Shown one piece after another: positions 22,824 to 50,101 of a DNA stretch of 64,000 nucleotides; position 1 is the first letter of the stretch, and every line of letters begins with the position of its first letter. Made by a program: the position numbers and the translations under genes. The stretch covers positions 1-64,000 of the forward strand of contig CACZWL010000011.1 in NCBI GenBank assembly GCA_902784865.1, read 5' to 3'. The notes below the pieces were generated by a model that saw nothing but the letters and a program-made list of their open reading frames with translations, ran no database searches and was not told the origin of the DNA. The DNA comes from an uncultured Bacteroidota bacterium. Lineage in GTDB: Bacteria > Bacteroidota > Bacteroidia > Bacteroidales > P3.

Positions 22824-23549
22824 CTATTCTTCCTTGACAAGGCGGAAGAAAGCGGAAATTTCTTCTTGGTCGAGCACCATACGGACATCGAACTCTTTTT
22901 CCTGTGGCATATAACCTTCCTTCTCGCAGCGCAGGATGATGCGGACGTTGCTCGCCGTCTGGTAGGTCAGGCCCTTGATGTCCAGTGCTTTGGTGGCCTC
23001 GTAGGGTGTTGTCATCAGGTATTTGTTGTTGGTACTTTTGACCTCAGGGGTTTTTGAAACCACACGCCAGAAGATGTCGGCTCCTTGCGGACGAGACTGG
23101 ACGTCCCAGCGTACGATCATCTGTTCAAGTACGGTTGTACCCATGCCTTCAACTTTTTCCGTAGGCTCGTTTTTGGCATGCCGTGGGCGCATGTTTATCA
23201 CATACGATGATTGGGTGGGTTTGGTTACGGCACCTGTTGCGACGTCAACCACATATCCAGGGATTCCTCCGAGTATTATGTTTCCCAGGCTTGTCGGGTT
23301 GAATCCTTTTTCAACGTCAACCTCGCCACGGGAGTGGTCGTTCTCGGCGGTAATGGTCGACTTGTTGAATCCGCGTTTGACCTTGACTTCAGTAGGTCCG
23401 TTGATGTAATAGGTTTCTCCATCTACGTTTGCACGGGCGTATTCGCCAGTTGATGTGGACACTGTGACTTTTGCTGTAGTGCCGGACAATATGGTAGCAC
23501 ATGAGGTGAACAAAGGGAGTATTGCTAATAAAGCAAGCGATTTCTTCAT
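22824..23549 (-). CDS. Lipoprotein with glycine-rich hydrophobic segment
   Basis: A 241-residue lipoprotein; lipobox LFTSC at residues 13-17, followed by ATILSGTTAKVTVSTSTGEY. Residues about 85-107 form a hydrophobic glycine-rich stretch (SLGNIILGGIPGYVVDVATG), as found in other Bacteroidetes envelope lipoproteins with PEGA-like N-termini. The C-terminal half is predicted beta-rich. Function unknown. Codon use is less GC-biased than in neighbours. No clear promoter is seen between it and the structured RNA, so it could be read through from upstream. Confidence 0.75.
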   Translation of the reverse strand: MKKSLALLAILPLFTSCATILSGTTAKVTVSTSTGEYARANVDGETYYINGPTEVKVKRGFNKSTITAENDHSRGEVDVEKGFNPTSLGNIILGGIPGYVVDVATGAVTKPTQSSYVINMRPRHAKNEPTEKVEGMGTTVLEQMIVRWDVQSRPQGADIFWRVVSKTPEVKSTNNKYLMTTPYEATKALDIKGLTYQTASNVRIILRCEKEGYMPQEKEFDVRMVLDQEEISAFFRLVKEE

Positions 23550-23632
23550 ATTTTCTTGCCGGTTTTATACCGTTGGCGCGTCGGTTTTGATTTAATAACA
23601 TGTTATATTGCTGTTCCGACGAGGTATGCACA

Positions 23633-23892
23633 TAAAAAGAGCGTGGAACTTGTAGGTCTTCATTGGTTCTCCTGAGGTCTTGGACTACCTATTTTCCCCA
23701 ATTACAACGTAAAAGTCCACGCATAAACGTGACCACGCTGTCGCCAAAGCTGGGGAAAATCTCTGAAAGTGTCCAAGTTTCAGGAGAACCAGTTCTGCTA
23801 ACTTCGCTATTTTCTATTCTATGATGTGCATATTGATTCTATGCGATATGCTTCATTGGCAATATATTTCGTTAATATTCCGGTTGTAAATC
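23633..23892 (-). ncRNA. Structured small RNA 1 (promoter to U-tract)
   Basis: About 260 bases from a full promoter to TCTTTTTAT. A long interrupted hairpin pairs 23780-23790 with 23665-23675, 23771-23776 with 23680-23685, and 23751-23760 with 23691-23700. Its apical loop contains GCGTGG twice (complement at 23717-23722 and 23733-23738), and CCACGC occurs again immediately before the U-tract (23641-23646), so the 3' end can pair with the loop. The RNA at 49853-50065 has the same plan. Possible identities are a Bacteroidales-1 or 6S-like RNA; I cannot confirm either. Confidence 0.7.
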
Positions 23893-23897
23893 GACTG

Positions 23898-23928
23898 CAA
23901 AAGTACGACAATTATTTCATACGGCAAA
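23898..23928 (-). promoter_or_regulatory. Promoter of structured RNA 1
   Basis: TTTG (23925-23928) and TACTTTTG (23898-23905) on the minus strand, 19 bases apart, with ATTTTGCCGTAT around the -33 box. Confidence 0.75.
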
Positions 23929-23957: not shown

Positions 23958-25802
23958 TCAGAACTGGAAGTAGATGAAGGGCTGGAGGTCGGCGGTGACG
24001 AACTGGTAGAGCGTCAGGGCCATGAGGACGACGGCCAGCGCCATGAGCCACAGCGGCATGGCGGCGAACCAGAGGCGGTAGCGGCGCTTCAGGCGCTCTG
24101 GCAGCCAGTGGATTAGCATGCCGAGGGCGAAGAGGAGGAAGACCTGCCAGTAGGAGGTGACGATGGTAGGCACCTGCTGTAGGTTCCAGTGCGAGCCTAT
24201 CTGAGCCACCATCTGAGAGGCGGTCTCCCATGCCACCTCGTTGGCTTCGGCAGGGTCGAGGTTGGAGCCGCTGCGGAAGAAGAGCCGCGTGAAGCTGATG
24301 AAGACGAAGGTGATGAGTACGCTCCAGGCGGTGGCTACGTTGGATTTCTGATTGTGGATTTCTGATTTTTTAGTTATCAGGCTGCATACATATATAATAA
24401 TGTATCCGCCGAGGAGGACTTGTGCGCAGAAGGCCAGGAGGTTGAGCAGTGGGCTCTCGACCGGAAGCGAGGCGGCGGTGAGCGCTGCGGCCGCGAGCGT
24501 CAGCGTCAGCAGGCGCGCACCCCATCGGCGGCCGCGCCACCATTTGTAGACCAGGATGCCGAGGCCGTTCAAGCCGCCCCAGGTGATGAAGTTGAACGAC
24601 GCGCCGTGCCACAGGCCGCCCAGCAGCATGGTGTCCATGTTGTTGACGTTGGTGCCGAGGGTTTGGCGGTGGGACGGGCGGAAGATGTAGAGCGCCAGGA
24701 TGATGACTGCCACGGCGACGGCGGCCGCCGTGAACCAGAGGTTCTGGAGACGGAAGGCCGCGATGGCGAGGATAAGGAAGAGGAGGAAGTAGGAGAGGAA
24801 GCCCGCCGAGCGGTTGCCGCCGAGGGGTATGTAGAGGTAGTCGCGTAGCCAGCGCGAGAGCGACATGTGCCAGCGGCGCCAGAAGTCGGTGGGGTTCTGC
24901 GCTTTATAGGGCGAGTTGAAGTTCACCGGCAGGTAGAATCCCATGAGCATGGCCACGCCGATGGCGATGTCGGTGTAGCCCGAGAAGTCGGCGTAGACCT
25001 GCAGCGAGTAGAGCATCAGTGCGGAGAAGTTCTCGAAGGGGGTGTAGAGGAGGGGGTTCTCGAAGACGCGGTCGACGAAGCTGACGGCGAGGTAGTCGCT
25101 GAGTATAATCTTCTTTATCAGTCCGTTGCAAATCCAGAAGACGGCGATACCGAACTGGCGTCGGCCAAGGAAGAAGGGGCGGTAGAGCTGCGGGACGAAC
25201 TGGTCGGCGCGCAGGATGGGCCCTGCGACGAGCTGGGGGAAGAAGGCGGTGTAGAAGCCGAAGTCGAGAATGTTGCCGACATGGGGTATCTTGCGGCGAT
25301 AGACGTCGACTATGTAGCTGATATTCTGGAAGGTGAAGAACGATATGCCCACCGGCAGCAGTATCTTGACGGCGATGCTGTACTCGGTGTGGAAGGTGGC
25401 GTTGAAGATGTCGAGGAAGAAGTAGGCATACTTGAAGAAGCAGAGCACGGCGAGGTTGAGGACTACGCCAGTGGCACAGAGGATTTTGCGGCCTCGGCGT
25501 AGGCCGTCCATTCCGATGCCGAGGAGCCACCCGACGAGGGTGGAGCCGACGAGGAGCAGGACGAAGAGGCCCGAGGTCTTGTAGTAGAAAAGCAGGCTGA
25601 AGGCGAAGAGGTATCCGTTGCGGAGTATGCGGCGTGTGGGGTCGAGGCTGCCGTCGGGCTGGCGGCGCTGGCGCGCGACGATGAGTCCGAAGACTATATA
25701 TATAATAAGGAATAGGACCCAGAAGTGGATTTGGGTGAACAGCAGGGGGTGGTCGCTGTTGAAGGAGAAGAGGCTGAGTATGTAGTGTCCGAGGGCGCTC
25801 AT
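23958..25802 (-). CDS. MBOAT family O-acyltransferase
   Basis: A 614-residue polytopic membrane protein with a dozen or so helices. MBOAT signatures are present: FFPQLVAGPILRADQFVPQL, DFWRRWHMSLSRWLRDYLYI and LLGGLWHGASFNF with the catalytic histidine. Relatives (AlgI, PatA, DltB) move acyl groups across the membrane onto extracellular glycans. It directly abuts two SGNH-hydrolase genes, the usual partners that complete the transfer, so the trio is likely an O-acetylation unit acting on LPS, capsule or peptidoglycan. A loop near residue 480 (KKSEIHNQKSN) is encoded by a short AT-rich direct repeat. Confidence 0.92.
   Translation of the reverse strand: MSALGHYILSLFSFNSDHPLLFTQIHFWVLFLIIYIVFGLIVARQRRQPDGSLDPTRRILRNGYLFAFSLLFYYKTSGLFVLLLVGSTLVGWLLGIGMDGLRRGRKILCATGVVLNLAVLCFFKYAYFFLDIFNATFHTEYSIAVKILLPVGISFFTFQNISYIVDVYRRKIPHVGNILDFGFYTAFFPQLVAGPILRADQFVPQLYRPFFLGRRQFGIAVFWICNGLIKKIILSDYLAVSFVDRVFENPLLYTPFENFSALMLYSLQVYADFSGYTDIAIGVAMLMGFYLPVNFNSPYKAQNPTDFWRRWHMSLSRWLRDYLYIPLGGNRSAGFLSYFLLFLILAIAAFRLQNLWFTAAAVAVAVIILALYIFRPSHRQTLGTNVNNMDTMLLGGLWHGASFNFITWGGLNGLGILVYKWWRGRRWGARLLTLTLAAAALTAASLPVESPLLNLLAFCAQVLLGGYIIIYVCSLITKKSEIHNQKSNVATAWSVLITFVFISFTRLFFRSGSNLDPAEANEVAWETASQMVAQIGSHWNLQQVPTIVTSYWQVFLLFALGMLIHWLPERLKRRYRLWFAAMPLWLMALAVVLMALTLYQFVTADLQPFIYFQF
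24340..24373. repeat. Direct repeat GGATTTCTGATT inside the MBOAT gene
   Basis: Two copies of TGGATTTCTGATT separated by one base encode a loop between membrane segments. The AT-rich array is unlike the surrounding coding sequence and resembles the arrays in clpP and trmD. Confidence 0.6.
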
Positions 25803-49432: not shown

Positions 49433-49601
49433 CGTTTTTGTTGTTTTTAGCAGTTAAATATTTTTCTTTGTATATCTTTCTCAACATTTGCTCATGATTC
49501 ATGTATTCCGGTAGTGTCCATTCAAGATTAACATTGCCTACTATTGGGCTATTCCTAATCACTTCATTACATACGTTTTTTGCATTATTCGTCCTTGCCA
49601 A
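49419..49601 (-). CDS. Hypothetical small protein, island gene 2
   Basis: A 60-residue protein (MARTNNAKNVCNEVIRNSPI; ending YLTAKNNKNDEPF). It overlaps the genes on both sides by 14-17 bases. No motif is seen; coding status rests mainly on the tight overlaps. Confidence 0.5.
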   Translation of the reverse strand: MARTNNAKNVCNEVIRNSPIVGNVNLEWTLPEYMNHEQMLRKIYKEKYLTAKNNKNDEPF

Positions 49602-49785
49602 AGGCTACAACTATCACATCTTTCAGATTGATGACCCAGAAAACAATAAGAACCCATTTTACAATGTTAGAAAATGTGTTCCACTCGCTGATATGGAAGT
49701 TCCAACTAAACAGGCTGCATAGTAGATAGCCTACAACGGGTATTGTTACAAGCCACAAGATACCTCCCGACAAGTTTTTCTTCAT
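49585..49785 (-). CDS. Hypothetical small membrane protein, island gene 1
   Basis: A 66-residue protein with two hydrophobic segments (GILWLVTIPVVGYLLCSLF and IVKWVLIVFWVINLKDVIVV). It is the first gene of the AT-rich minus-strand cluster. A 12-bp palindrome CACTAATTAGTG lies about ten bases before its ATG and may be an operator. Confidence 0.6.
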   Translation of the reverse strand: MKKNLSGGILWLVTIPVVGYLLCSLFSWNFHISEWNTFSNIVKWVLIVFWVINLKDVIVVAFGKDE

Positions 49786-49807: not shown

Positions 49808-49852
49808 TCGTGCGCAACCTCCATACTGGCCAGCCCAACTCCAGTGATTTTA

Positions 49853-50065
49853 CATAAAAGAAGCGTGGGCCTGCATGTCTCACATTGTACTTGAAGGTCG
49901 TAGCAAAAACCTGTATCACTAATGTAAAGGGACAGCCCACGCTTGCGCGCGAAGCCGTCACACCGCCCTTGTGATACTTTGAAAATTTGCTACGTTCTCA
50001 AGTACAAGGAAGCATAACGCTTCTAATCATTAACTTTCGGCCTTGAGGTTATACCCTCAAAAACC
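49853..50065 (-). ncRNA. Structured small RNA 2 (same architecture as 23633-23892)
   Basis: About 213 bases from a full promoter to CTTCTTTTAT. Long interrupted hairpin: 49998-50005 pairs with 49887-49894, 49986-49994 with 49899-49907, and 49971-49977 with 49913-49919. The apical loop holds GCGTGGGC (complement at 49935-49942), and GCCCACGC recurs just before the U-tract (49863-49870). The 5' end has its own small hairpin (TTGAGG/CCTCAA). Arms share little primary sequence with RNA 1 but the plan is the same. Confidence 0.7.
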
Positions 50066-50070
50066 GACTG

Positions 50071-50101
50071 CAAAAATACGAACAATATTCCATTCTGCAA
50101 A
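50071..50101 (-). promoter_or_regulatory. Promoter of structured RNA 2
   Basis: TTTG (50098-50101) and TATTTTTG (50071-50078), 19 bases apart, divergent from dut. Confidence 0.75.

Follow-up and report, generated by a model that had tools for sequence, protein, structure and literature searches.

An attenuator-like, multi-class family of candidate leader RNAs upstream of unrelated genes in Bacteroidales

Comparison of copies identifies a multi-class conserved structured element that lies upstream of genes and holds alternative pairings beside a U-tract. Two loci in the window (the whole stretch of 64,000 nucleotides that was analysed) are, judged by sequence, members of one RNA superfamily. 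Position and sequence provide a 5' leader site, a helix with a U-tract, and mutually exclusive pairings, as found in attenuators. On these comparative grounds we consider it somewhat probable that the elements are cis-acting 5' leader RNAs of one multi-class family and work as transcription attenuators. In kind, the element is a leader RNA resembling attenuators, unusual in design and outside every Rfam family. The multi-copy, gene-preceding character of the elements was missed by an earlier, sequence-only reading of this DNA.

Layout of the window loci

All features of locus 1 (promoter, hairpin, 3' arm and U-tract) are carried by the minus strand, with an MBOAT gene (23958-25802) on one side and a lipoprotein-like gene (22824-23549) on the other. 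The sequence-only reading had described a promoter and a U-tract on either side of about 260 non-coding bases that contain a long interrupted hairpin. We find these on the minus strand, where the hairpin-bearing stretch of about 260 bases lies 3' of the promoter and the RNA strand has a fold z-score of -4.6. The features are as follows.

23898..23927, minus strand: promoter TTG-N19-TACTTTTG, as read from the sequence; it has the form TTG-N19-TAnnTTTG, which we take to be the Bacteroidetes-type promoter consensus
23550..23893, minus strand: presumed 5' leader of the lipoprotein mRNA (putative start and extent), comprising the class 1 RNA and a downstream spacer, promoter to ATG on one strand
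23824..23832, minus strand: P1a 5' strand TATGCACAT, complementary to 23633-23625
23805..23808, minus strand: P1b 5' strand AGCG, whose partner is CGCT at the U-tract or, alternatively, a local strand in hairpin H1
23781..23790, minus strand: P2 left arm GGTTCTCCTG (helix 2; double changes in 10/10 pairs)
23771..23777, minus strand: P3 left arm CTTGGAC (helix 3; double changes in 7/7 pairs, 99.7% paired)
23750..23760, minus strand: P4 left arm ATTTTCCCCAG (helix 5; double changes in 10/10 pairs)
23713..23722, minus strand: apical strand GCGTGGACTT, with a local partner (P5b) or the 3' arm
23691..23701, minus strand: P4 right arm TTGGGGAAAAT (99-copy alignment)
23679..23685, minus strand: P3 right arm GTCCAAG (99-copy alignment)
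23665..23674, minus strand: P2 right arm CAGGAGAACC (99-copy alignment)
23641..23651, minus strand: 3' arm AAGTTCCACGC, complementary to the apical strand and directly before the U-tract
23634..23640, minus strand: U-tract TCTTTTT
23625..23633, minus strand: P1a 3' strand ATGTGCATA, past the U-tract and conserved in class 1 alignments
22824..23549, minus strand: lipoprotein-like gene (241 aa), downstream of the leader

The motif GCGTGG occurs twice in the apical part, as had been noted, but only the second copy (23722-23717) is the conserved family element. CCACGC followed by TCTTTTT is present at the 3' side. The RNA had been proposed to end there; the order of the two motifs stands, but conserved sequence runs on past the U-tract. 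Given this conservation and the leader position of the element, the RNA does not simply stop at the U-tract. A match to the class 1 covariance model spans 23640-23808, within the presumed leader. The locus 1 element should lie in the probable 5' leader of the lipoprotein-like gene. The 241-aa product has no Pfam match; a 92% identical protein sits behind the same leader type at another locus (L014).

Locus 2 has the same layout as locus 1, with different arm sequences and a fold z-score of -5.85.

50071..50100, minus strand: promoter TTG-N19-TATTTTTG
49852..50066, minus strand: class 2 leader RNA (class 2 model match at 49859-50023)
50009..50023, minus strand: H1 hairpin GAAGC-GTTAT-GCTTC, of which the 5' arm can alternatively pair with CGCTTC at the 3' end
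49932..49942, minus strand: apical strand GCGTGGGCTGT
49863..49873, minus strand: 3' arm CAGGCCCACGC
49856..49862, minus strand: U-tract TTCTTTT
49585..49785, minus strand: small ORF (66 aa, hydrophobic) following the class 2 leader, with no Pfam match

Against the class 1 model locus 2 scores 51 bits (E 2.3e-9), and we thus conclude that the two loci are relatives rather than a chance likeness. The common plan of the loci, pointed out by the sequence-only reading, is therefore borne out. Its use of locus 2 as covariation-like evidence for structure also held, as the hairpin covaries across the order.

Distribution and classes

All genome tallies include the genome from which the window derives (own genome). 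With locus 1 as blastn query, 5 copies were identified in the own genome. Among 59 sampled genomes of the genus, 32 have a match to locus 1 and 25 to locus 2. A search of species genomes with an exact 21-base pattern gave 106 stretches, which contain 108 copies. The taxa among the 80 matches listed are Bacteroidales, Bacteroidia, Bacteroidetes, Paludibacteraceae, Prevotella, two Candidatus genera and one 'bacterium P3', and these matches come largely from rumen or gut.

Covariance models were made for class 1 (R1; 46 sequences, 45 pairs) and class 2 (R2). R1 matched 108 of 149 sampled family genomes at E up to 1e-3, a threshold at which the own genome has at least 8 matches and one family genome at least 18. 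In the order, R1 was found in 52 of 295 sampled genomes (E up to 1e-5). The phylum sample yielded 4 of 296, namely the own genome and three genomes that share a genus, from a different family of the same class. R2 was present in 58 of 198 sampled order genomes; in the own genome it matched 12 places at E up to 0.01, four of them class 1 copies. These presences and copy numbers are lower bounds, because only the best 18 (family, R1), 9 (order, R1), 9 (phylum, R1) or 14 (order, R2) candidates per genome were scored and the filters were strict. Four fragmented genomes of 5.7-6.7 Mb (G182, G213, G236 and G339) have at least 10 to at least 14 R2 matches each, many at low contig coordinates, and their copy number is probably underestimated.

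Two more classes were found via R1 and R2: class 3 (L244, L253) and class 3b (L254, L255). Using one copy per class as blastn query, we identified class 3 in 83 and class 3b in 86 of 119 genus genomes, some of these matches spanning only the 5' part of the query. The search for further genome copies that had been proposed earlier thus yields at least 15 distinct places in the own genome: five of class 1, five of class 2, three of class 3 (on contigs C5, C2 and C1) and two of class 3b, with two of the 15 counted without sequence inspection.

Visual inspection also identified two leaders of a fourth type in the own genome (L245 at C8:27558 and L246 at C9:87201). They have the P2/P3 motif, lack GCGTGG and are followed by lipoprotein-like genes, suggesting that there are still more classes. 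We had considered Module A as a marker exclusive to the GCGTGG RNA, and rejected it as it led to these two leaders.

Some copies are incomplete. The class 3b 5' stretch (about 50-60 bases) occurs with no hairpin behind it at L289, at L290 and in short class 3b blastn matches; these stretches are either remnants or a separate element. One class 1 copy of the own genome (L003/L252, C16:7159-7382) has upstream sequence that does not align to the other copies' promoter region, and an apparent terminator follows this copy. It is perhaps a decayed copy.

The hairpin and its covariation

The 99 model-aligned copies comprise both classes and distant relatives. Within the hairpin, 96.3% of cells pair, compared with 72.7% after shuffling and 37-46% with slid partners, although the alignment was fitted to the structure tested and is biased in its favour. 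Changes on both sides occur at 36 of 45 pairs (31 in shuffles), and there are 933 double-change cells versus 257 in shuffles. All seven pairs of P3 covary. The P1b helix (helix 1 of the alignment) is 98.7% paired and nearly invariant. On this alignment-based evidence, a long P2-P3-P4 hairpin is strongly supported. Three copies gave matches on the opposite strand, all far weaker (32 versus 170.8 bits for L079); the stricter limit used for the 99-copy set dropped these, along with the weakest true copy (L165).

Pairing of the apical strand with the 3' arm

The pairs between the apical strand and the 3' arm lie outside the covariance model. The GCGUGG-CCACGC core pairs in 98.8% of cells, barely above the 98.4% of shuffles because the core is nearly invariant in classes 1 and 2. 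It has three double-change cells where 0.2 are expected, and 7 of 593 cells are unpaired (e.g., in L213, L217, L225 and L048). One pair further out, 51 of the 81 scorable copies have U-A and 20 have G-C (18 of 99 could not be scored); the remaining copies have G-U (2), U-G (2), U-C (2) or U-U (4). With class 2 excluded, the U/G by A/C table for this pair is 51, 2, 0, 4 (Fisher p 3.8e-5, uncorrected for descent and omitting 8 cells with other letters).

The classes differ by compensatory change. GCGUGG and CCACGC of classes 1 and 2 correspond to CCGUGA and UCACGG in class 3, where L253 pairs the two, so that both sides have changed.

Swapping arms among copies gives a second line of evidence, uncorrected for common descent throughout. 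For 107 copies, the duplex of apical strand and 3' arm averages -17.6 kcal/mol with own partners and -15.9 with swapped ones, the lowest of 50 swaps being -16.3. The window copy's 3' arm is singly unremarkable, as 76 of 106 swapped arms are equally good. In class 3b a 12-15 bp duplex of varying sequence is present in 17 of 17 distinct copies (from the 28 of 32 loci that were parsed). Own pairs of this class average -15.8 kcal/mol versus -12.9 swapped, and 0 of 2000 permutations were as good. The same test is uninformative for class 3, which is too invariant: 277 of 2000 permutations were as good, with two tails (L304, L306) mis-parsed. Compared with shuffled arms, those of L253, L254, L255 and L246 are clearly better (0 or 1 of 200 shuffles as good), and those of L244 and L245 are no better (44 and 48 of 200).

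The sequence-only reading had raised this pairing as a pseudoknot or as a terminator with its left arm in the hairpin loop. By sequence comparison, the pairing itself is supported, through the compensatory change between classes and the class 3b swap test.

Competing folds, U-tract and promoter

The apical strand also pairs locally, in P5b, with 96.2% of cells paired. Freeing it costs a median of 13.1 kcal/mol and pairing with the 3' arm returns -13.7. The net change has a median of -0.85 kcal/mol and is below 0 in 60 of 94 copies, with the pseudoknot penalty excluded. As the cost of release is close to the gain from pairing, the two states are about equally stable.

A second choice involves a 5' strand (AAAAGCG and similar) located 5' of the hairpin, whose possible partners are the CGC plus U-tract (P1) and a local strand (H1). 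The P1 duplex averages -14.6 kcal/mol with own partners and -12.3 when swapped (lowest of 60 swaps -12.8). H1 is weak, with class means of -3.2 to -4.2 kcal/mol and -1.2 in the window copy. P5b and the 3' arm pairing share strands, as do P1 and the 3' arm pairing, and the partners are thus mutually exclusive. Past the U-tract, a perfect six-base complement of the 3' arm is present in 30 of 138 copies, which is above swaps (mean 9.3, maximum 18) yet a minority of copies.

The U-tract follows the 3' arm directly: in 95 of 99 copies, the 8 nt after CGCT include five or more T. Upstream, TAnnTTTG lies within 220 nt in 64 of 96 copies (9.4 after shuffling), and TTG-N18-23-TAnnTTTG is present in 33 of 96 (0.8 after shuffling). 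GCCnATG is missing from 23 of 135 copies examined.

An upstream short ORF (MKHSA and others) was weighed as a sign of a leader-peptide attenuator, which would call for a conserved translated short ORF, and was not accepted as proof. All 83 distinct copies have a stop within 7 codons in its frame (38 when shuffled), but the other frames stop nearly as often (76 and 61 of 83). The pattern may derive from the P1a strand.

Downstream genes

A co-directional ORF (at least 60 aa, or 40 aa where a contig end truncates it) lies downstream of 155 of the 166 copies examined, at a median distance of 68 nt, and 145 of the 166 have an ATG within 150 nt. Of the 11 misses, 10 have 168 nt or less of sequence left and one (L134) is without a normal 3' end. 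As a rough control, an ORF lies within 150 nt in 91 of 99 cases downstream versus 51 of 102 on the divergent side. From their position, the elements look like 5' leaders of the genes that follow.

By a simple rule, signal-like N-termini are predicted for 87 of 99 class 1, 22 of 28 distant and 14 of 27 class 2 downstream ORFs (the last omitting one ORF more than 300 nt away), and for 20 of 51 window ORFs. Class 2 is therefore not clearly enriched. Pfam assigned 39 families over 102 downstream proteins, none in more than three. Judged by these sequence-based predictions, the downstream genes are unrelated and mostly encode exported proteins. They share no evident pathway, and thus suggest no ligand.

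RNAs that are 92-96% alike stand before unrelated ORFs in three pairs of loci (L017/L018, L023/L024 and L021/L026; ORFs chosen mechanically), suggesting evolutionary exchange of leader and gene. L018 and L024 have the same gene upstream and differ in the cargo genes behind the leader; this site is possibly one of exchange for leader-cargo cassettes. The proteins downstream of L014 and L015 are 84% identical over 119 aa and have different N-termini, as if by domain exchange, behind leaders that are 96.5% identical.

Function and alternative explanations

As transcription attenuators, the leaders would work as follows. The apical strand, 3' arm and U-tract would form an intrinsic terminator that stops transcription before the gene. 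In a competing fold, P1 would sequester CGC and the U-tract and let RNA polymerase through. The balance would be set by H1 versus P1 and by P5b versus the 3' arm, and a ligand, a protein or the translation state would tip it. Here we infer attenuation, signal and transcription itself. The alternative folds, together with a position before many unrelated genes, suggest a shared, built-in on/off gene switch.

Action after transcription is the strongest alternative, although we regard it as unlikely. A stable pseudoknot would control translation or stability of the mRNA, and the U-tract would be structural, either unpaired or paired in P1. The conserved sequence past the U-tract in class 1 (ATGTGCATA), partly complementary to the 3' arm, fits such folding at least equally well. 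A DUF805b-type RNA between leader and gene in five copies, one above the gathering score, also speaks for it. However, 95 of 99 copies have a GC-rich arm immediately followed by a U-tract, and in class 3b a U-tract adjoins the duplexes of 12-15 bp; intrinsic terminators are built in this way.

JUMPstart/ops, EAR and put are cis signals for processive antitermination and, like the present RNA, are single leader elements before varied surface-related genes. A signal of this type, by which a protein or RNA would modify RNA polymerase over varied surface-protein genes, would account for one leader type before unrelated, mostly exported genes. We consider it improbable, because this leader, unlike those elements, has its own terminator-like 3' arm and U-tract.

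Still less probable is that the element is an independent regulatory RNA (6S-like or trans-acting) and lies upstream of genes by chance. Such an RNA would be in keeping with an own promoter, a U-tract and a high copy number, but not with the co-directional ORF just downstream of 155 of 166 copies, nor with the failure of Rfam 6S and Bacteroidales-1 to match at E up to 5.

The least probable is a small mobile repeat (a MITE-like palindrome) with no regulatory role, which would fit the multiple copies, the complementary class 1 ends and the similar RNAs before unrelated ORFs, but is opposed by covariation across the order, by the much better score of one strand, by the leader position and by the lack of any blastn match of the window copy in phage or plasmid collections. 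Viral contigs contain no match to one exact 21-base pattern.

Returning to attenuation, we see a nearly even chance for a wider proposal: a Bacteroidales-wide RNA switch superfamily with several classes per genome, providing exported accessory proteins with an interchangeable expression module. Unrelated genes would acquire a promoter-plus-switch leader, one common signal or RNA-binding regulator may govern all, and the terminator would be a pseudoknot with its left arm in the apical loop. If true, many members of a major gut order share an RNA switch before unrelated exported or lipoprotein genes, a regulon invisible to protein annotation. It would then offer a route to the signal these bacteria use for deploying exported proteins, a test case for transcription termination by an apical-loop pseudoknot, and a compact module for controlling genes in gut bacteria.

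Relation to known RNA families

A cmscan of Rfam 15 gave no match over either window locus at E up to 5. This includes Bacteroidales-1 (RF01693) and 6S / 6S-flavo (RF01685), families that the sequence-only reading had suggested for a search and which are likewise structured RNAs of the phylum. 6S RNA is also a long interrupted hairpin. Riboswitch and leader-type attenuators are alike in having a 5' leader position, exclusive pairings and an arm beside a U-tract before the gene start. The present RNA differs in that the left arm of its terminator would lie in the apical loop of a preceding long hairpin, in its unrelated, mostly exported genes, and in at least 18 model matches in one genome.

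By comparison with Rfam and the literature, the RNA family is apparently undescribed. The element is not described in the available portions of PMC9723704, PMC8040213, PMC2864571 and PMC7366714, where it may stand as a nameless entry in a candidate list; PMC8040213 has 3161 candidates, possibly including such an entry.

For 20 distant loci, Rfam at E up to 1 gave three matches (DUF805, DUF805b and patAB), all outside the element RNA. DUF805 (RF03081) and DUF805b (RF02914) are cis-regulatory candidates found in some of the same leaders. They differ in being much shorter (68 and 35 model positions) and in occupying other places in the leader. A DUF805b-type match lies just downstream of the element RNA at L223 (from the 20 distant loci) and at L089, L091, L071 and L084 (from 8 loci chosen partly for carrying such a module), and at the loci examined it never lies over the hairpin element itself. 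L089 alone is above the gathering score. At L223 the DUF805b-type match (1696-1732) is followed further on by a DUF805 RNA above the gathering score (1789-1854). Other start-proximal modules (ACCGACGTGCCGATGGTATATAAC and similar) may be of the same kind as the DUF805b-type RNA.
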